Source of the DNA: an uncultured Oscillospiraceae bacterium
GTDB taxonomy: Bacteria; Bacillota_A; Clostridia; Oscillospirales; Oscillospiraceae
Assembly: GCA_900757695.1 (NCBI GenBank)
Contig: CAAEOU010000248.1
Span: forward strand, 1-7,002
Reading direction: 5' to 3'
Length of the DNA: 7,002 nt
Part shown: piece after piece, positions 1 to 6,672 of the stretch
How positions within the stretch are numbered: position 1 is the stretch's first letter
Layout of the letters: each line of letters begins with the position of its first letter
Notes under the pieces: generated by a model
Told to the model about the DNA's origin: nothing
Database searches by the model: none
Seen by the model: only the letters and a program-made list of their open reading frames with translations
Program-made: the position numbers and the translations under genes

Positions 1-302
1 AGCCGCATATTTTTCCCACCGTTGGCCGTTTTATCGTAGCCTTCGATTTGGAATCGCATCCCACAATCGCAAAACAGAATTTTCGTCCATTTGTTCTGCG
101 GAAAGGACACACCAAATTTATGGGCACGACCATCTTTTCCTTTGACAAATGCAGCTCGCTTACTGCGGATCTGATTGCAGGTTTCCCATAGCTTCTCTGA
201 GACGATTGGCTCAAAGTTTCCCTTTACAAGAACAAAGTCCTCCTCGCTGTGATTGATGCGGTTATGGCTGAGGAAGTCATCAATATGGGATTTATTATGG
301 AC
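1..302 (-). pseudogene. Large serine recombinase, internal fragment lacking the catalytic N-terminus
   Basis: Read on the minus strand, the frame from about 302 to base 1 is open for roughly 100 codons and has the features of the recombinase domain followed by the zinc-ribbon of large serine recombinases. I see NKSHIDDFLSHNRINHSEED near the start, then the family-typical stretch GNFEPIVSEKLWETCNQIR, and then the first half of a zinc ribbon, ILFCDCGMRFQIEGYDK (Cys-x-Cys-Gly). These enzymes catalyse insertion and excision of integrative elements. The N-terminal resolvase domain with the catalytic serine is not present upstream in any frame; instead the sequence is an acyltransferase gene start in another frame. 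The C-terminal part lies outside the window. It is therefore a 5'-truncated remnant or the product of a rearrangement. The family call rests on motif recognition only; the exact left limit of homology (about 290-310) is uncertain. Confidence 0.72.
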
Positions 303-517
303 CAGCTGCGGCTTTTTTCCTGCCAGCACAAGCAAGATCCAGAAAGGAGAGTCATGGTGTATACCGCCACTTGGACCAGCGGCTCCATAGCGGGAAGAAA
401 ATCTGCTGGACATAGTCCCCGAACGGCGGTTTCTACCTGATAATGATAGAATACTACCACCAAGATTCCGAATACCCGAATCAAATCCAGACCGGGAAGA
501 TGTTTGAACTCTTTCAT
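224..517 (-). pseudogene. Acyltransferase family 3 (OafA-like) membrane protein, truncated after about 72 codons
   Basis: The 97-codon frame starts at the ATG at 517-515, chosen because a TAGGAGG box (530-524) sits 6 nt upstream; a longer upstream ATG at 607 would lie above the predicted promoter and has no such site. Residues 8-30, with PGLDLIRVFGILVVVFYHYQ, are the first TM segment of acyltransferase-3 proteins and contain their Arg-x10-His motif (R14, H25). Residues ~50-68 (TLLSGSCLCWQEK) resemble the 'FFxLSGF' second segment. Family members have about 350-400 residues and about ten TM helices and transfer acyl groups to sugars or cell-wall polymers. After W72 (about 302) similarity ends, the frame runs 25 more unrelated codons to a stop, and the other frame becomes serine recombinase. 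The product is almost certainly non-functional. Its promoter matches those of the neighbouring regulator and transporter operons, suggesting that it was once co-regulated with them. Confidence 0.7.
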
Positions 518-523
518 GGCCAG

Positions 524-530
524 CCTCCTA
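524..530 (-). promoter_or_regulatory. Ribosome binding site that fixes the acyltransferase start
   Basis: TAGGAGG on the minus strand, 6 nt before the ATG at 517-515. It is a near-perfect Shine-Dalgarno sequence and decides for the internal methionine over the ATG at 607. Confidence 0.8.
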
Positions 531-546
531 AACTCTCTTGACATAT

Positions 547-600
547 AAGATAGGAGGCATTTCTTTCTATTCGATGACTTGGAAGGTGACAAAGTTGTCA
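547..600 (-). promoter_or_regulatory. Predicted regulator-activated promoter of the acyltransferase
   Basis: Reading the minus strand from 600: TGACA-ACTT-TGTCA (600-587), a perfect 5-bp inverted repeat with 4-bp spacer; 7 bp; AGTCA (579-575); 22 bp; TATCTT (552-547) as -10. No -35 box is visible at the expected 17-bp distance, as expected of an activator-dependent promoter. Transcription would start near 540, giving a leader of about 23 nt that contains the TAGGAGG site. The layout matches the ABC promoter at 2401-2454 base for base in spacing, including a shared GAAAGAAA within the 22-bp spacer. The inverted repeat resembles the TNACA-N4-TGTNA type known for BceR-like regulators. Activation is inference. 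Confidence 0.68.
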
Positions 601-624
601 GAAACAATGTATTTACCAGGAAGA

Positions 625-678
625 TTACATATCAGATGACAGATCAGTCACGCACAGAGTACTATTCCGTGATATAAT
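625..678 (+). promoter_or_regulatory. Predicted autoregulated promoter of the response regulator/kinase operon
   Basis: TATAAT at 673-678 is a perfect -10 and lacks a recognisable -35 at 650-655. Exactly 22 bp upstream is AGTCA (646-650), and 21 bp before that, TTACA (625-629), the left half of the operator seen at the other two promoters; the right half here (AGATG, 634-638) is degenerate. An alternative overlapping imperfect palindrome TGACA-GATC-AGTCA (637-650) abuts the -35 region. Both readings fit an activator bound just upstream of polymerase. Start of transcription would be near 685, about 35 nt before the ATG at 720. The weaker operator could mean lower or later induction than for the ABC genes; that is inference. 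Confidence 0.6.
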
Positions 679-719
679 AATATGGCACATTAAACATTTG
701 AAGTGAGGAAATCATCCCA

Positions 720-1403
720 ATGGTTCGGATATTGTTGATTGAAGATGACTCCACTATTGCAGCCGGGCTGGCGTATTCTCTGGAACAGGAGGGGTGGAGT
801 GTCACTTGCAAGGGCACTCTGGCGCAAGGGAGAAACGCCTTAGAGACTGGAGAATACCAGCTGCTATTGGTGGATGTCGGTTTGCCTGATGGTAGCGGCT
901 ACGATCTGTGTGCTGCTGCTAAAAGCAGGAATATTCCGGTGATTTTTGCCACTGCAAGAGGGGATGAGGGAAGCGTAGTACTGGGCCTGGATATGGGGGC
1001 TGACGATTATATCGTTAAACCCTTTCGGTTGCGGGAAGTGGCCAGCCGCATCCGGGCCGTACTACGCAGAGCGGCCGGAGAGCGGGAGCAGTTGGTTCGG
1101 TTGGGGGAACTGGCGGTAGATACACAGAAAGGCCAAGTGACCCGTAACGGAACTCCCATCTTGCTTACCGCTCTGGAATACCGATTACTGCTTACTTTTC
1201 TGTCTCATCCTGGACAGACTCTCACCCGGGGGCAACTGTTGGAAGGAATCTGGGATGTGGCAGGAAATTTTGTCAATGACAACACCTTGTCTGTGTATAT
1301 CAAGCGACTGCGTGACAAGCTGGAAATGCCAGGACACCCTCTCATTTCCACTGTGCGTGGAATGGGCTATCGGCTGGAGGTAGATGGCCATGACAAGAAA
1401 TAA
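720..1403 (+). CDS. OmpR/PhoB-family response regulator (BceR/VanR-like)
   Basis: 227 residues, the usual length for the family. Residues 1-118 form the receiver: acidic pair in LLIEDD (E8, D9, D10), phospho-acceptor D52 in LLVDVGLPDGSG, T78, and K100 in the IVKPF motif. Residues ~126-222 form the winged-helix DNA-binding domain, with DNTLSVYIKRLRDKLE as recognition region and the wing signature TVRGMGYRLE. The DNTLxVxxxRLRxKL pattern is typical of regulators linked to peptide-sensing ABC systems. The start codon is preceded by a modest GAGG (705-708) 11 nt upstream. The gene overlaps the start of the kinase, so the pair is translationally coupled. It probably binds the operators at 587-600, 625-650 and 2401-2426 and so controls itself, the ABC genes and the acyltransferase. 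Family call is firm; regulon is inferred from promoter similarity. Confidence 0.95.
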   Translation: MVRILLIEDDSTIAAGLAYSLEQEGWSVTCKGTLAQGRNALETGEYQLLLVDVGLPDGSGYDLCAAAKSRNIPVIFATARGDEGSVVLGLDMGADDYIVKPFRLREVASRIRAVLRRAAGEREQLVRLGELAVDTQKGQVTRNGTPILLTALEYRLLLTFLSHPGQTLTRGQLLEGIWDVAGNFVNDNTLSVYIKRLRDKLEMPGHPLISTVRGMGYRLEVDGHDKK

Positions 1404-2403
1404 GGAATTATATCTGCCTATCGCCCTCAGCATGGCTCTGACTTTTGTTTCGGGGCTGCTCTGTGGCTTTTTGGGTGGCCCCTGGGCAGCACTGACAGGG
1501 AGCGGGTCCGTTCTTCTCACCACACTGCTCTGGATGAGCACAACATGGAGCCGGTATAAAAAGCTGCAGGAATTAGGAGAATACCTGGCTTCGGTATATG
1601 CAGGCGGGGAACTTCTGGATATTCGTGACAATCGGGAAGGAGAACTGAGCCTTCTGAAGAACGATCTGCACAAGATTACCGTTACCCTTCGTCAGCAAAG
1701 TGCCCAGCTGGCTCATGACAAGGAATTTTTGCAGCAGCTTCTGGACAATATTTCCCATCAACTGCGCACCCCTCTTACCGGAATGCTGGTTATGGCGGAC
1801 TTGCTGGCACGACCAGACCTACCGCTGGAAAAGCGCCAGGAATTTACCGGGCAGCTTACTGCACAGCTGGAACGAATGCAATGGTTACTGGAGAGACTTT
1901 TGACCTTGTCCCGGTTGGATGCCGGGTGCCTGGAACTGGAACGAAAAACCGTTTCACTACCATCTTTGCTGGATAGAGCTACTGCTCCGGTAAGGGTGGC
2001 CCTGGAACTGCGTGGCCAGACTTTAAAAGTGGAGTGTCCTCAAGACCTCCTGTGGGAAGGGGATGAAAAATGGACCGCAGAGGCTGTAACCAACCTGGTG
2101 AAAAACGCTTCTGAGCATTCCCCGGAAGGAGGCTTGGTAAAAATTTCCGTGAGCAAGGATGTACTGAATCTTTGGATCACAGTGGAAGATAATGGCCCCG
2201 GTATCCCGGAATTGGATATGCCCTATTTGTTTCGGAGATTTTATCGTGGCAGTAATGCCGCTCCGGGCAGCGCTGGTATCGGCTTGGCTTTGGCGGCAGA
2301 ATTAGTTCGAGCTCAAGGCGGCAGTGTGGTGGCAGAAAATCAGACCCCAGGCCCTGGTGCTCGTTTTATCCTCAAATTGCCCATACATCCCGGTAGTTTG
2401 TGA
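1390..2403 (+). CDS. Two-TM sensor histidine kinase with minimal extracytoplasmic loop
   Basis: About 337 residues. Two adjacent TM helices (roughly residues 7-30 and 31-53) are separated by only a few residues (GGPW), so there is no extracellular sensor domain, as in intramembrane-sensing kinases such as BceS. A linker/coiled coil follows, then the H-box NISHQLRTPL with the phospho-histidine, and the catalytic ATPase with N-box TNLVKNASEHSP, G1 DNGPGI, F-box LFRRFYRG and G2 AGIGLALA. Two in-frame ATGs exist at 1384 and 1390; GGAGG at 1376-1380 is 9 nt from the second and only 3 nt from the first, so I prefer 1390, and 1384 would add two residues. It overlaps the regulator gene by 14 bp. The stop TGA at 2401-2403 is the first three bases of the ABC operator. 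With no sensor domain, the signal most likely comes from the neighbouring transporter (inference). Confidence 0.93.
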   Translation: MTRNKELYLPIALSMALTFVSGLLCGFLGGPWAALTGSGSVLLTTLLWMSTTWSRYKKLQELGEYLASVYAGGELLDIRDNREGELSLLKNDLHKITVTLRQQSAQLAHDKEFLQQLLDNISHQLRTPLTGMLVMADLLARPDLPLEKRQEFTGQLTAQLERMQWLLERLLTLSRLDAGCLELERKTVSLPSLLDRATAPVRVALELRGQTLKVECPQDLLWEGDEKWTAEAVTNLVKNASEHSPEGGLVKISVSKDVLNLWITVEDNGPGIPELDMPYLFRRFYRGSNAAPGSAGIGLALAAELVRAQGGSVVAENQTPGPGARFILKLPIHPGSL

Positions 2404-2454
2404 CAAAACTGTCACCCAGACAGTCATCAAGAGGAAAGAAACAGCCAGTATACT
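2401..2454 (+). promoter_or_regulatory. Predicted regulator-activated promoter of the ABC transporter operon
   Basis: TGACA-AAAC-TGTCA (2401-2414) is a perfect 5-bp inverted repeat beginning on the kinase stop codon. After 7 bp comes AGTCA (2422-2426), then 22 bp, then TATACT (2449-2454) as -10. No TTGACA-like -35 is present (ATCAAG at the expected place). Spacing is identical to the acyltransferase promoter at 600-547 and, for AGTCA and -10, to the regulator promoter at 646-678. TGTCA and AGTCA form a direct repeat with 12-bp period, so binding of two regulator dimers, a main and a secondary site, is plausible. Transcription would start near 2461. Function is inferred from the triple conservation. 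Confidence 0.7.
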
Positions 2455-2464
2455 CAAGATGTGG

Positions 2465-2484
2465 GGGCAACAAAGGCGTTGCCC
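2465..2484 (+). other. Hairpin in the 5' leader of the ABC operon
   Basis: GGGCAAC (2465-2471) pairs perfectly with GTTGCCC (2478-2484) around a 6-nt loop. TCAAGA (2454-2459) and TCTTGA (2487-2492) could extend it beyond an asymmetric internal loop, though that arm lies at or before the predicted transcript start. The stem ends 12 nt before the AGGAGG site at 2497-2502. There is no T-tract, so it is not an intrinsic terminator; it may stabilise the 5' end of the mRNA or be incidental. Confidence 0.4.
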
Positions 2485-2507
2485 AGTCTTGATACCAGGA
2501 GGGAAAT

Positions 2508-3191
2508 ATGGAATTACTGCGTGTGGAACACCTTAGCCGTTATTATGGGGAAGGTCCTGCCCAAGTAAAGGCACTGGATGATGTGTCATTCTCCGTAGAA
2601 AAAGGGGAGTTTGTCGCCATTATGGGCCCGTCTGGCAGTGGAAAAAGCACCCTCATGCACCTGCTTGGAGGGGTGGACAAGCCCACAGCCGGACATGTAT
2701 GGTTACAGGGCACCGATCTTTACAAATTGGACGAGAACGCACTGGCCATTTTTCGACGGCGCCAGATAGGTCTGGTGTATCAGTTTTACAATCTACTTCC
2801 TGTGCTCAATGTACGGGAAAACCTGACCTTACCTTTGCTGTTGGATGGACGCAATGTCAACAAAAACCAGTTGGAACAGCTGGCCCAAATTCTGGGCATC
2901 CAGGATCGGATGAACCATCTGCCCCATCAGCTTTCCGGCGGTCAGCAGCAGAGGGTCAGCATTGGCCGGGCCCTGATTACCAGCCCTGCCCTTCTGTTGG
3001 CAGATGAGCCTACCGGCAACCTGGACAGCAAAAACAGTGCTGAAGTGATGGCTTTGCTGCGTTATTTTCATGAGAAAAAAGGTCAGACATTATTGGTCAT
3101 TACCCACGATGAACGGATTGCCTGTCAGGCAGACCGACTCATTACTGTGGAGGATGGGCATATTGCTCAGGACGAGGCGGTGCGGCCATGA
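2508..3191 (+). CDS. ABC transporter ATP-binding protein (MacB/LolD/BceA type)
   Basis: 227 residues, a single full-length nucleotide-binding domain. Walker A is GPSGSGKST (40-48), the Q-loop is in YQFYNLLP (Q92), the signature is LSGGQQQR (142-149), Walker B with catalytic glutamate is LLLADEPTGNLD (E167), and the H-loop is TH at 199-200. The PTGNLDSKNS sequence after Walker B is characteristic of the MacB/LolD/SalX group, which power mechanotransmission or peptide-handling permeases rather than classical import. The ATG is preceded by AGGAGG (2497-2502) with 5 nt spacing. The gene has its own promoter and hairpin leader and ends in a 4-bp ATGA overlap with the permease, so the two products are made together and should form one complex at the cytoplasmic membrane. 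Substrate cannot be read from the sequence; an antimicrobial peptide role rests on context. Confidence 0.96.
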   Translation: MELLRVEHLSRYYGEGPAQVKALDDVSFSVEKGEFVAIMGPSGSGKSTLMHLLGGVDKPTAGHVWLQGTDLYKLDENALAIFRRRQIGLVYQFYNLLPVLNVRENLTLPLLLDGRNVNKNQLEQLAQILGIQDRMNHLPHQLSGGQQQRVSIGRALITSPALLLADEPTGNLDSKNSAEVMALLRYFHEKKGQTLLVITHDERIACQADRLITVEDGHIAQDEAVRP

Positions 3192-5869
3192 AAAATATTG
3201 TGCACACTTTGACTCTCGCTCAGATGCGGGCTAATCCCCGTCGTACTCTTGTGACTCTGGTGGGTGTGGTTTTATCGGTGACCATGCTCACGGCAGTTTT
3301 TGCGGGGGCTGATTCCTTTTTGAATCTTCTGTACCGACAGGCAGCACAGGACAACGGCACCTGGCATGGCAGAGCCTTTGAGACTGGAGAACAGGTGGTA
3401 GAAAATCTGTCCCAGGATGACAGGATTGACCAACTGGGCCTGGCAGCCAGTTGGGGAGTGTCTCCCTTGGACGACAGCAATAGGTGGGGGGCCGCTCTCT
3501 ATGGAGTAAACCAGTCATTTTACCAGCTTTTGAGGGTAGAGTGTCTGGAAGGAAATCTTCCTTCCACAGAGAACGAACTGGCCATTTCTCAGACTCTCGC
3601 CAAAAAGACCGGTTGGAAGATTGGAGACCAAGTCTCTTTGGATTTGTTACGAGTATGGACCCCACAAGGGGTGGATTCCGCAGGGGAAATGATCTATCGG
3701 CAAACCAGCGGCCCGGGAATCATGGGATTATCGGACAGCTATATGCTCCGTTCTGTGGGGGAAAAACAGTTCACGATTACAGCTATTGTGGACCCAGGCG
3801 GTTTTGATGATCAAAATGTGTTCGCCTGGGAACCATGCTTTACAGTTCTGGAGGATCAGATCCCCCCGGATGGATTGTGGTGCGCTTATTATACTGTCAG
3901 TTCGCTGGGGCGAGAACTGTATGACCTGCTGGAAAGTATCCAGGAATGGCAGGCAGACTTGCCTGTCGATGCTGGAGGCGTGGGGACCATCGATCTAAAC
4001 CGGCAGCTCTTGCTTTATTATGGCATAGATTATCCGGGCAGCCTTCTATTGCCTGCCTTTTACGGTTTGATGGCGGTAACACTTCTCATTATTCTGGTGG
4101 ATGCTGTGTCTCTGGCTCGAAACGCCTTTGCCATCAGTATGACGGAGCGCATACAAATGCTGGGAATGTTGGCCAGTGTGGGGGCTACCCGGGCGCAGAA
4201 GCGGCAGTCCGTCTTGTATGAAGCCTTTATTCTGGGATTGATTGGCATCCCTTTGGGCCTGATTGCAGGCTGTGGAGGTATGGCGATTACACTGGTTTTC
4301 CTGAATAGTCAGGTACAGGAACTGTTTCAATTTTCTCAGCCTCTTTATCTTTCGGTACGGCCTCTTCCCCTGGCCGCTGCAGCCCTGCTGGCAGCCTTGA
4401 CCCTGGCATTCAGTGCACTGCAACCGGCCTTGAAAGCCGGCAGGATCACGCCCATGGATGCCATCCAAGGAGAAGGTCAGGTTCAATTTCATTCCAATGA
4501 TGTAAAAACAGGAAAACTGACTGGAAAGATTTTCGGCTTTCCTGGAATTTTGGCCCTCAAAAATTGTAAGCGAAACCGGGGACGGTATCGAGCAATTGTA
4601 TTTTCCCTGGCGCTCAGCGTAATTATGCTGCTGGCTGGCACCGGACTTTCTTATTATGTGGACCGTGCCATGGGAGTGCGTTACGGGACAGACAGTCCCT
4701 TAGCAACGGCGACCATCACCTTCAACGATCCTTCCTTGGATACCGCTACCTATACGGATGATCTGAAAGCTCTGGCTGGAACAGGGGAAGTACGGTTGGT
4801 CGGAGGTTTGCAGGCTGGAGAGATGGGCAGCTTCACTTTGAATTGGGCGGATATGAGCCAAGACGCAATAAAATGGTTTCAAAACCAGAGCGGTCTCTTA
4901 GATGAACAGGATTATACTTCTGAGGACGGCCAAAATGTCACCGTCTATCCCACCTTGCTGGTCATGGATGACCAGGAGTTTTCCGACTGGGCAGGCAAGG
5001 AAGTTTCCTTGAATTCGGATTATCTGGATTGTGTTATGATCACCAGCACCTATCTGTATAATGCAGGCAGCTACACTCAGCTGAAAAATGCTCTGAATCT
5101 ACAACCTGGATTTTCTATGGAGTTTGCACAAGAGAACGGGTTTGCAGACACTTGGCACGTAGCAGCACTGGCGGAGGATTTCCCTTATTCCGGAAACACG
5201 GTCACCTCCAACACCGTGGAAAGCCTTACTTTACAGTTGGTGACCAGTCGCAGTGTATTCCAAGCATTCCTGAATCGGCAGGCAGACCTGGGCAGAAGCG
5301 GTGCATACTACTGGCAGGTGCAGTACATTCACCCTGAAAGTATTTCCGCCCTAACCAGCGGATTGGAGGAATGGTCCCTAAACAACAGCTATGGCCTGCC
5401 CCAAGGGGTGATCAGTGCAAACTACAATTCCTTTGCCATGGGTGGCCTTCAGCGGTTTGGAATGCTTCTACAAATCTTATGTACCGGGTTTGTTCTGCTG
5501 CTATGTCTGGTATGTATGGCCAATATTCACAATAGCCTCTCTACGGGAATGGAACTGCGTGCCCGGGAATATGGAATTCTCCGCAGCGTAGGAATCACAC
5601 CCGTGGATTTCCGTAAGATGATTTGGCTGGAAAGTCTTTTCTACGGAATCAAAGCGCTGTGCTGGAGTTTACCTTTTGGAATGGGCGTGTTGGCCCTGGA
5701 ATACTATGCTATCCGACGAGCATTCCAACTTCCCTTCTGTCTGCCAGTGGGCAGCATTGTCCTGGCAGTTGTTTTAGTAATGGGGGTATGCTGGATTTCT
5801 GGACTTCTGACCCGCAGGAGTCTGGAGGAGCAGACTATTACCGAGGCCATTCAGAAAAGACTTTTTTAA
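3188..5869 (+). CDS. FtsX/MacB-type ABC transporter permease with two large extracytoplasmic domains
   Basis: 893 residues with an internally duplicated plan. TM1 is at about 20-42, followed by an extracytoplasmic domain (43-282), TM2-4 (about 283-306, 345-371, 392-411), a cytoplasmic linker, TM5 (about 467-489), a second extracytoplasmic domain (490-755) and TM6-8 (about 756-778, 815-837, 853-874). Each half has the FtsX-type coupling segment between its second and third helix: RIQMLGMLASVGATRAQ (321-337) and EYGILRSVGITPVDFRK (794-810). This 8-TM, two-FtsX-domain layout differs from BceB, which has 10 TM helices and one large loop of about 200 residues. It overlaps the ATPase gene by ATGA; a GAGG near 3174-3177 may support initiation. 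It probably works as a fused heterodimer-like permease that extracts or expels membrane-active peptides or lipids and may signal to the kinase. Specific substrate unknown. Confidence 0.93.
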   Translation: MKNIVHTLTLAQMRANPRRTLVTLVGVVLSVTMLTAVFAGADSFLNLLYRQAAQDNGTWHGRAFETGEQVVENLSQDDRIDQLGLAASWGVSPLDDSNRWGAALYGVNQSFYQLLRVECLEGNLPSTENELAISQTLAKKTGWKIGDQVSLDLLRVWTPQGVDSAGEMIYRQTSGPGIMGLSDSYMLRSVGEKQFTITAIVDPGGFDDQNVFAWEPCFTVLEDQIPPDGLWCAYYTVSSLGRELYDLLESIQEWQADLPVDAGGVGTIDLNRQLLLYYGIDYPGSLLLPAFYGLMAVTLLIILVDAVSLARNAFAISMTERIQMLGMLASVGATRAQKRQSVLYEAFILGLIGIPLGLIAGCGGMAITLVFLNSQVQELFQFSQPLYLSVRPLPLAAAALLAALTLAFSALQPALKAGRITPMDAIQGEGQVQFHSNDVKTGKLTGKIFGFPGILALKNCKRNRGRYRAIVFSLALSVIMLLAGTGLSYYVDRAMGVRYGTDSPLATATITFNDPSLDTATYTDDLKALAGTGEVRLVGGLQAGEMGSFTLNWADMSQDAIKWFQNQSGLLDEQDYTSEDGQNVTVYPTLLVMDDQEFSDWAGKEVSLNSDYLDCVMITSTYLYNAGSYTQLKNALNLQPGFSMEFAQENGFADTWHVAALAEDFPYSGNTVTSNTVESLTLQLVTSRSVFQAFLNRQADLGRSGAYYWQVQYIHPESISALTSGLEEWSLNNSYGLPQGVISANYNSFAMGGLQRFGMLLQILCTGFVLLLCLVCMANIHNSLSTGMELRAREYGILRSVGITPVDFRKMIWLESLFYGIKALCWSLPFGMGVLALEYYAIRRAFQLPFCLPVGSIVLAVVLVMGVCWISGLLTRRSLEEQTITEAIQKRLF

Positions 5870-5909
5870 ACAGAAGCCGCAGAAGTGTTTTCCTTCTAAA
5901 GGGCTCTCG

Positions 5910-5937
5910 GAAGAGGTCACCTAAAGGTGGCCTCTTC
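5910..5937 (+). terminator. Strong hairpin after the ABC operon, lacking a U-tract
   Basis: GAAGAGGTCACC (5910-5921) pairs with GGTGGCCTCTTC (5926-5937) over 12 bp with one G-T wobble and a TAAA loop, 40 nt after the permease stop. It is the likely 3' end of the operon transcript, but the following bases (TCGTGTCAAGAG) have no T-run, so it may act as a weak or Rho-assisted terminator, or as a 3' stabiliser. Confidence 0.5.
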
Positions 5938-6044
5938 TCGTGTCAAGAGAAGAAATACAGTACAATGGATATGAATAATGAGAAGAGCTGATATTGTTCC
6001 TGTGTAAACAGCAAATAAAAACCTGTAATTATCTTGTACAGAGA

Positions 6045-6084
6045 CAATAAAAATGACGGGTAAGCATTTTTGTGTGCTTACCCG
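6045..6084 (-). terminator. Intrinsic terminator of the DUF6061-like gene
   Basis: CGGGTAAGCA (6057-6066) and TGCTTACCCG (6075-6084) form a 10-bp stem with an 8-nt loop. On the minus strand it is followed by TCATTTTTATTG, a U-rich tract, and it starts 15 nt after the stop codon of the minus-strand gene. On the plus strand no T-run follows. Confidence 0.8.
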
Positions 6085-6098
6085 CCTTGTTTCATCTG

Positions 6099-6347
6099 TT
6101 AATTTTCAAATGGCTTGTATACAGTCACGGTTTTCAGATACTTCACGGGATCGCCGTTCAGCACCAAATCTGCATACTCAGCCGGAGCATTATAAATCAG
6201 CCAGTCCAGCTCAGAGCGTTCATACATATTGTCGGCCACTTCATTCTCTAAGGCGATGGTATCAATGGAAATCATGCTGCCATCGGCATATTTTAGCTCG
6301 ACGCAAGCGGTGTCAATATTGAACTCACAGGATAGTAAATGGCTCAC
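6099..6347 (-). CDS. Small DUF6061-like protein of unknown function
   Basis: 82 residues from a GTG start at 6347. The sequence SHLLSCEFNIDTACVELKYA is followed by DGSMISIDTIALENEVADNM, then YERSELDWLIYN and DLVLNGDPVKYLK. I recognise this as the DUF6061-like family, small soluble proteins common in Clostridia accessory regions; no function is known to me. No TM helix or signal peptide is visible. The frame is open further upstream to an ATG at 6449, but AAGGAG (6362-6357) lies 9 nt before the GTG, and family proteins are about this short, so the GTG is preferred. It is monocistronic, convergent with the ABC operon and closed by its own terminator. A clear promoter upstream was not found. Confidence 0.75.
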   Translation of the reverse strand: MSHLLSCEFNIDTACVELKYADGSMISIDTIALENEVADNMYERSELDWLIYNAPAEYADLVLNGDPVKYLKTVTVYKPFEN

Positions 6348-6672
6348 GGTGTTGATCTCCTTACAGCTTTCATTTTTAACAAATAATCTGTCGTGATGAA
6401 CCCGCTTCCCGAATGTTGCTTCCCACACTCCGCACCAATTCCGCACCAATTTGTCATGAAAGTATATGTAGATGCATGGATTTATGTAACGGAAAAGTTC
6501 GTAAATATGGGAAATATTGAGCTTTATGAAGGTGTATTGAGATATGAAAAGGCCGATTATACAGCCGGACAGCAGATGCGTTCTCTGCTACGACCTCCAG
6601 CTCTATTTGCAGATACCAAGCAAACGCCCCCGCCTAACGCATAAGGAGCCGGACACTTTATATTTGTTACCC
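6348..6672. other. Gene-poor stretch, no supportable gene
   Basis: This stretch holds the RBS of the DUF6061-like gene (6357-6362) and an 11-bp tandem repeat (6430-6451). On the plus strand, frames open at 6458 (the MKVYVDAWIYVTEKF frame, within the frame 6393-6644) and at 6544, but neither ATG has a good Shine-Dalgarno site (bases before 6458 read CCAATTTGTC), and I recognise neither product. The stretch may be a remnant of an integrated element or a long leader running to the terminator at 6673. Confidence 0.5.
6430..6451 (+). repeat. Perfect 11-bp tandem duplication
   Basis: CCGCACCAATT occurs twice back to back (6430-6440 and 6441-6451), in the gene-poor region upstream of the DUF6061-like gene. 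It may be a slippage duplication or part of an old element junction; no function can be assigned. Confidence 0.85.

Follow-up and report, generated by a model that had tools for sequence, protein, structure and literature searches.

The 7,002-nucleotide stretch of Oscillospiraceae DNA analyzed here (the window) carries a two-component system, an ABC transporter operon behind it and a divergent acyltransferase gene, and it raises the question of whether the promoters of these genes are read through one shared operator and, if so, by which regulator. A sequence-only reading had proposed that three promoters share a single exact operator and -10 arrangement, that all three lack a good -35, and that the regulator at 720 probably activates each of them. 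The features of the locus, including the corrected position of one operator box, are collected in the table below.

Table. Genes and predicted promoter elements of the window, with positions counted from its first nucleotide.
Feature	Position	Strand	Basis or remark
Response regulator, OmpR/PhoB family, 227 aa	720..1403	+	Response_reg and Trans_reg_C domains, both over the gathering cut-off
Histidine kinase, 339 aa, short N-terminal membrane part	1384..2403	+	Domain search, hydropathy
ABC transporter ATPase, LolD/MacB/FtsE-like	2508..3191	+	Family profile scores
Permease, 893 aa, two FtsX stretches, two long stretches between hydrophobic segments	3188..5869	+	Profiles, hydropathy
Truncated acyltransferase gene, divergent	224..517	-	Acyl_transf_3, E 0.0011, below gathering score
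Inverted-repeat box TGACA-ACTT-TGTCA, acyltransferase promoter	587..600	-	Motif search; same spacings before related gene in G249
Second half-site AGTCA, head-to-tail, 12 bp on from the right half of the box	575..579	-	
-10 box TATCTT, acyltransferase promoter, 22 bp after half-site	547..552	-	
Inverted-repeat box TGACA-AAAC-TGTCA, transporter promoter	2401..2414	+	
Second half-site AGTCA, head-to-tail, transporter promoter	2422..2426	+	
Third half-site place, transporter promoter	2434..2437	+	GAAA here; GTCA in 82/89 relatives with core
-10 box TATACT, transporter promoter, 22 bp after second half-site	2449..2454	+	
Operator box TGACA-GATC-AGTCA (TGACAGATCAGTCA), regulator promoter, corrected register	637..650	+	Conservation in relatives
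-10 box TATAAT, regulator promoter, 22 bp after box	673..678	+	

We found that the pattern TGACA-N4-TGTCA-N7-AGTCA-N22-TATNNT occurs at zero mismatches exactly twice in the window, at 600-547 on the minus strand and at 2401-2454 on the plus strand. The full composite gave no match in 200 dinucleotide-shuffled windows, even when three mismatches were allowed, and the earlier argument that such identical spacing is hard to obtain by chance holds for these two exact sites. The claim of one shared architecture also stands for this pair, and the third site, which had been read as starting from 625, was misregistered by 12 bp. A promoter scan of positions 500-2520, requiring at least 4/6 matches per hexamer and at least 9/12 overall, reported no promoter using any of the three -10 boxes, so at this threshold the statement that all three lack a good -35 was confirmed. 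The same scan returned two other promoter-like sites, with a chance level of 1.8.

At the regulator's own promoter, it was noted that the TTACA at 625 is present, but its proposed right half, AGATG, fits nothing; the conserved box lies at 637-650, and the AGTCA read earlier as a secondary element is the right half of this complete box. The box occupies the place of the second GTCA of the transporter promoter, about one turn nearer the -10. Because a single box sits about one helical turn nearer the -10 here, the three promoters are not identical in architecture, and the three sites are two layouts with a common 22-bp gap. The idea that AGTCA is a promoter-proximal second site was therefore right in kind for the transporter and acyltransferase promoters, where it is a second repeat, and wrong for the regulator promoter. 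A minus-strand reading that combines the 637-650 box with TGTAA (629-625) gives a one-mismatch form of the 12-base composite in both the window and genome G222; this candidate at 650-625 was given no weight because the TTACA there, 12 bp upstream of the regulator box, is absent by eye in loci L139, L001, and L118.

The single-box layout taken alone in the window is only moderately unlikely, with 12 of 200 shuffles giving at least one match at one mismatch. The 637-650 site is supported because the box is conserved before the regulator gene in 25 of 108 usable loci and in none of 109 shuffled ones, counting boxes with at most one mismatch that are followed by TANNNT 19-36 bp on (L113 was left out). 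The gap was 22 bp in 22 of these loci and 23 bp in 3. The box stands at the same place in G222 and G387, and it carries one mismatch in G001, G012, G130, G205, and G249, the last with a gap of 23 bp. Six of the 25 loci belong to named genomes, five of them Clostridia and one an unplaced Firmicute; the rest are the window and genomes from one family, and no named Bacilli were found among the 25. By the criteria used, the box was not found in 83 of the 108 loci, which indicates that autoregulation through an own box is not universal. A genome pattern of exact box, 22 bp, and TATNNT recovered none of the regulator promoters in seven close genomes, all seven promoters differing from it by one base or more, and it marked three other sites in two of those genomes.

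The transporter promoter was compared across relatives of the regulator from two sets, namely named genomes (the best 80 of 583 confirmed matches) and 58 of 297 genomes of one family. Before counting, 14 repeats of the same places were removed (for example, L121 = L001 and L084 = L114), as were 10 loci without one of the two genes or without enough sequence. The sample comprised loci with a related kinase and transporter ATPase, 99 at first and then 100 with the addition of L139. With a fixed 8-base gap, the core was found before the ATPase gene exactly in 42 of 99 loci and with at most one mismatch in 49 of 99 (shuffled, 0 of 99). When the gap was allowed to be 7 or 8 bases, TGAC-N6-GTCA-N7/8-GTCA was found before the ATPase gene exactly in 68 of 100 loci and with at most one mismatch in 89 of 100 (shuffled, 0 of 100), counts that overstate the number of independent events since the loci are akin to each other. 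The shuffle controls of these conservation counts, and of the one for the regulator promoter, used a single mononucleotide shuffle per locus. A reverse-complement control of the core gave no exact and five one-mismatch occurrences among 99, as expected from a partly palindromic box. The 11 loci with more than one mismatch, all counted as failures, include L023, L026, L068, and L074, in which the motif lies about 1 kb before the ATPase gene.

Among the 89 core-bearing loci, 87 possess TANNNT at exactly 22 bp after the second GTCA, which makes the 22-bp distance a trait of the family as a whole. A further GTCA, starting 7 bp after the second, was found in 82 of the 89. The consensus reads TGAC.AAAtTGTCA, a spacer, AGTCAC, then GTCAT, about ten bases, and TAtACT; the last GTCA is absent from the transporter promoter of the window, G222, and G387, where GAAAG stands in its place. 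Conservation of the motif upstream of orthologues, a check set beforehand, was therefore found, and judged by this conservation the element is a family-wide operator. It was noted that the transporter operator begins with the kinase stop codon TGA (2401-2403), and three bases of the box are thus explained by the coding end.

Directly 3' of the point where transcription of the transporter operon is predicted to start, a stem-loop was observed at 2455-2491, where 70 bases fold at -20.4 kcal/mol, a value computed for the actual sequence only. Across five sequences, two-sided changes occur at four of seven consensus pairs, four of the seven pairs are broken in at least one of the five, and the covariation term is near zero. 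The stem-loop is a possible leader element of the transporter operon; no Rfam match was found in the window at gathering scores.

We assessed the breadth of the regulon by searching the 16-base form with all repeats in 50 whole genomes chosen from the 80 loci, with motif-bearing loci preferred. It was found in 41 of the 50 chosen genomes, which is not an unbiased rate given this preference, with 42 sites in total and none for the reversed pattern. All but one of the 42 sites lie between the kinase and ATPase genes of the module; the exception comes from the genome of L053, which has a second, diverged module copy (L145 1995-7367) with the site ahead of its ATPase gene. A chance origin of the motif was rejected on the counts of 89 of 100 versus 0 of 100 loci, 42 versus 0 genome sites, and 0 of 200 shuffles. 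The module itself is regular in its layout, with all four genes in order on a single strand in 73 of the 80 loci (the best of 583 confirmed matches), and with at least one of the four missing within the stretch available in the remaining seven.

The shorter 12-base core was less discriminating at one mismatch, with 72 occurrences in six whole genomes versus 91 for the reversed control, which is no excess, and 9 versus 2 in G387. The evidence taken from the 12-base genome scans was restricted to exact matches. In G222, these are the acyltransferase promoter, the transporter promoter, and one site inside long open frames. The fragmented genome G249 possesses two exact sites only, at the acyltransferase and transporter (L122) promoters. 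In G387, whose contig reaches 263 bp upstream of the regulator gene, the transporter promoter is the only exact site.

The acyltransferase gene was then considered together with its operator. In the window, approximately 74 residues match the intact G222 gene and the match stops near 296; beyond this point lies a different minus-strand frame (3-413), whose Recombinase match falls slightly short of the gathering score (20.0 versus 21.1 bits). Intact copies are carried by G222 and G249, and the divergent promoter in the window strain probably serves a broken gene. The identity to G222 is 98.8% over 6.3 kb (window 297-6563), and colinearity is confined to this stretch, so the flanks of the segment differ between the two genomes. 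Within this colinear stretch, downstream of the transporter operon, a DUF6061 protein was observed at 6099-6449 on the minus strand (134.3 bits). Beyond the acyltransferase in G222 (L114 1039-6638), genes were found that resemble, by eye, a mobilisation protein and a primase, and these suggest a mobile element that adjoins the module or carries it.

The acyltransferase of G249 is 59 percent identical to that of G222 and is encoded away from the regulator, with starts near 1288 and 5544 on the contig, respectively, and other genes between them. Its promoter consists of the box, 7 bp, CGTCA, 22 bp, and TAGTAT, so the operator marks this gene even when it does not adjoin the regulator. The earlier proposal that one operator serves a small regulon, made up of the transporter, the regulator, and the divergent gene, was supported in that the motif is conserved and marks this acyltransferase at a distance of some 4 kb from the regulator. 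Among 14 acyltransferase matches, the operator was found only with the two closest; the other 12 (26-46 percent identity) showed at least 3 mismatches in 12 within 250 bp of the gene starts, whose positions come from alignments and could be off. Regulators with 78 percent identity or more were found in 7 of 396 genomes, and two of these seven have the acyltransferase with the operator.

From this examination, we consider it likely that the module is served by a dedicated two-component activator, for which an inverted repeat and head-to-tail GTCA repeats would replace the -35, the boxes being the predicted sites of the regulator at 720. By its domain scores, this regulator is of the OmpR/PhoB type, with a receiver (PF00072, 71.5 bits; cut-off 30.2) and a winged-helix Trans_reg_C domain (PF00486, 80.5 bits; cut-off 26.2).

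A different assignment, to a Bce-type module, takes up the resemblance to BceR-type boxes noted in the sequence-only reading, and we regard it as improbable, if the best of the alternatives. Here a BceR-like regulator would bind a main site with high affinity and a secondary site with low affinity, and peptide antibiotics would be sensed via a BceAB transporter. The inverted repeat does fit TNACA-N4-TGTNA, the box of BceR-type regulators, and the second site lies towards the promoter; Fang and others in 2017 are said to have described main and secondary sites at the BceR and PsdR promoters of Bacillus subtilis. By score, the best solved relatives of the regulator are RegX3 (142.5 bits) and MtrA (141.1), and it reaches 119.8 bits with KdpE, all above the 108.5 and 107.4 bits with 5dcm and 5dcl, which we take to be the BceR-like NsrR. 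The kinase carries a HisKA domain, against which BceS kinases are reported to score poorly. Its membrane part is very short, with a clear first segment at 13-31 and a second (approximately 33-52, by eye) below the threshold used, and the ABC transporter adjoins it, as in the Bce-like modules of PMC3023708 and PMC10858260. The former describes Bce-like kinases in which a linker of fewer than 11 residues connects two membrane segments, and Bce-like permeases with ten membrane segments and a 197-213-residue loop between segments 7 and 8. The 893-residue permease of the window instead showed, by hydropathy only, seven segments above threshold and two long gaps at 40-285 and 488-758 (approximately 245 and 270 aa), and not ten segments with one loop. 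The PsdR/ApsR consensus printed in PMC10858260, AnnTTACnAnnnnGTnAG, was matched in part only, by eye. BceRSAB and PsdRSAB resemble the module in their adjoining regulator, kinase, and ABC transporter, in an inverted-repeat box before the transporter gene, and in a kinase that appears to be nearly without an extracellular part; the module differs from them in permease topology, by hydropathy, and in regulator kinship, by score, and on these two points the BceR assignment was not supported.

It is less probable still that the boxes are repression sites, or sites of another OmpR-type regulator, rather than sites of activation by the neighboring one. The sites overlap the -35 place and the claim on activation is drawn from sequence, but no -35 was seen there to block at the scan threshold, the fixed 22-bp distance to the -10 suits an activator touching polymerase, and all 42 of the genome-wide 16-base sites lie within module copies. 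That the shared spacing shows descent and not function, one of the acyltransferase and transporter promoters being a recent duplicate of the other, is very improbable: the two window sites are alike beyond the boxes (AGTCATC, then GAAAGAAA), but the transporter promoter keeps its geometry across distant Firmicutes and the G249 acyltransferase promoter keeps it with many spacer letters different, so duplication may be the origin of a site and leaves its upkeep unexplained.

The dedicated activator would work as follows. An envelope signal, perhaps a peptide antibiotic (a guess by analogy with Bce-like modules), would reach the kinase. Since the kinase appears to have almost no extracellular part and hardly any room outside, it would probably sense with the help of the ABC transporter, as the same analogy suggests. 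A dimer of the phosphorylated regulator would then bind TGAC-N6-GTCA. At the regulator promoter, one dimer would end 22 bp before the -10, at the -35 place, and touch RNA polymerase. The transporter and acyltransferase promoters have the box 12 bp higher, about one turn, and there additional regulator subunits would cooperatively fill the head-to-tail GTCA nearer the -10 (two such repeats in most core-bearing relatives, one here).

Two further known systems share parts of this arrangement. PhoB half-sites are given as TGTCA(T/C), head-to-tail, in PMC3264566, and the Pho box as direct repeats of 11 bp in PMC3978041. The operator is similar to the Pho box in its head-to-tail half-sites and in the OmpR/PhoB type of its predicted regulator, and the last two GTCA of the relatives stand at an 11-bp pitch in 82 of 89. 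Unlike the Pho box, it has an inverted TGAC-N6-GTCA box upstream, and in the window, which is without the last repeat, only the 12-bp step remains. No phosphate genes were seen in the window, unlike the Pho system, and the regulator falls far under the PhoB family cut-off (TIGR02154, 182.1 versus 296.2 bits). The transporter is similar to LolD/MacB/FtsE systems, as LolD and MacB give the best scores for the ATPase and the permease matches the FtsX and MacB_PCD profiles; it differs from them in having one fused permease with two FtsX stretches behind a two-component system, and the ATPase scores shown are below the curated NCBIfam cut-offs. A partial search of the open-licence literature, which is no proof of absence, found no printed account of the operator or of the double-FtsX module.

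More tentatively, and at somewhat less than even chances, the module could represent a widespread class of dedicated two-component switch, for which the papers searched give no description, with mostly one full operator per genome, and in which the box position and the repeat number set the output: a single box at 22 bp for the regulator, and for the transporter a box one turn higher with one or two head-to-tail repeats. A membrane acyltransferase would have joined the regulon in one lineage through its operator, which marks it both beside the regulator and 4 kb off. If the reading given here is true, one short signature at a constant distance from the -10 would identify the control region of the module across many Firmicutes, and it would predict the module's target genes genome by genome. 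The three layouts (a single box, or a box followed by one or by two repeats) would form a natural series for OmpR/PhoB-type activation without a -35, and the acyltransferase would be tied to what may be an envelope-defence response.
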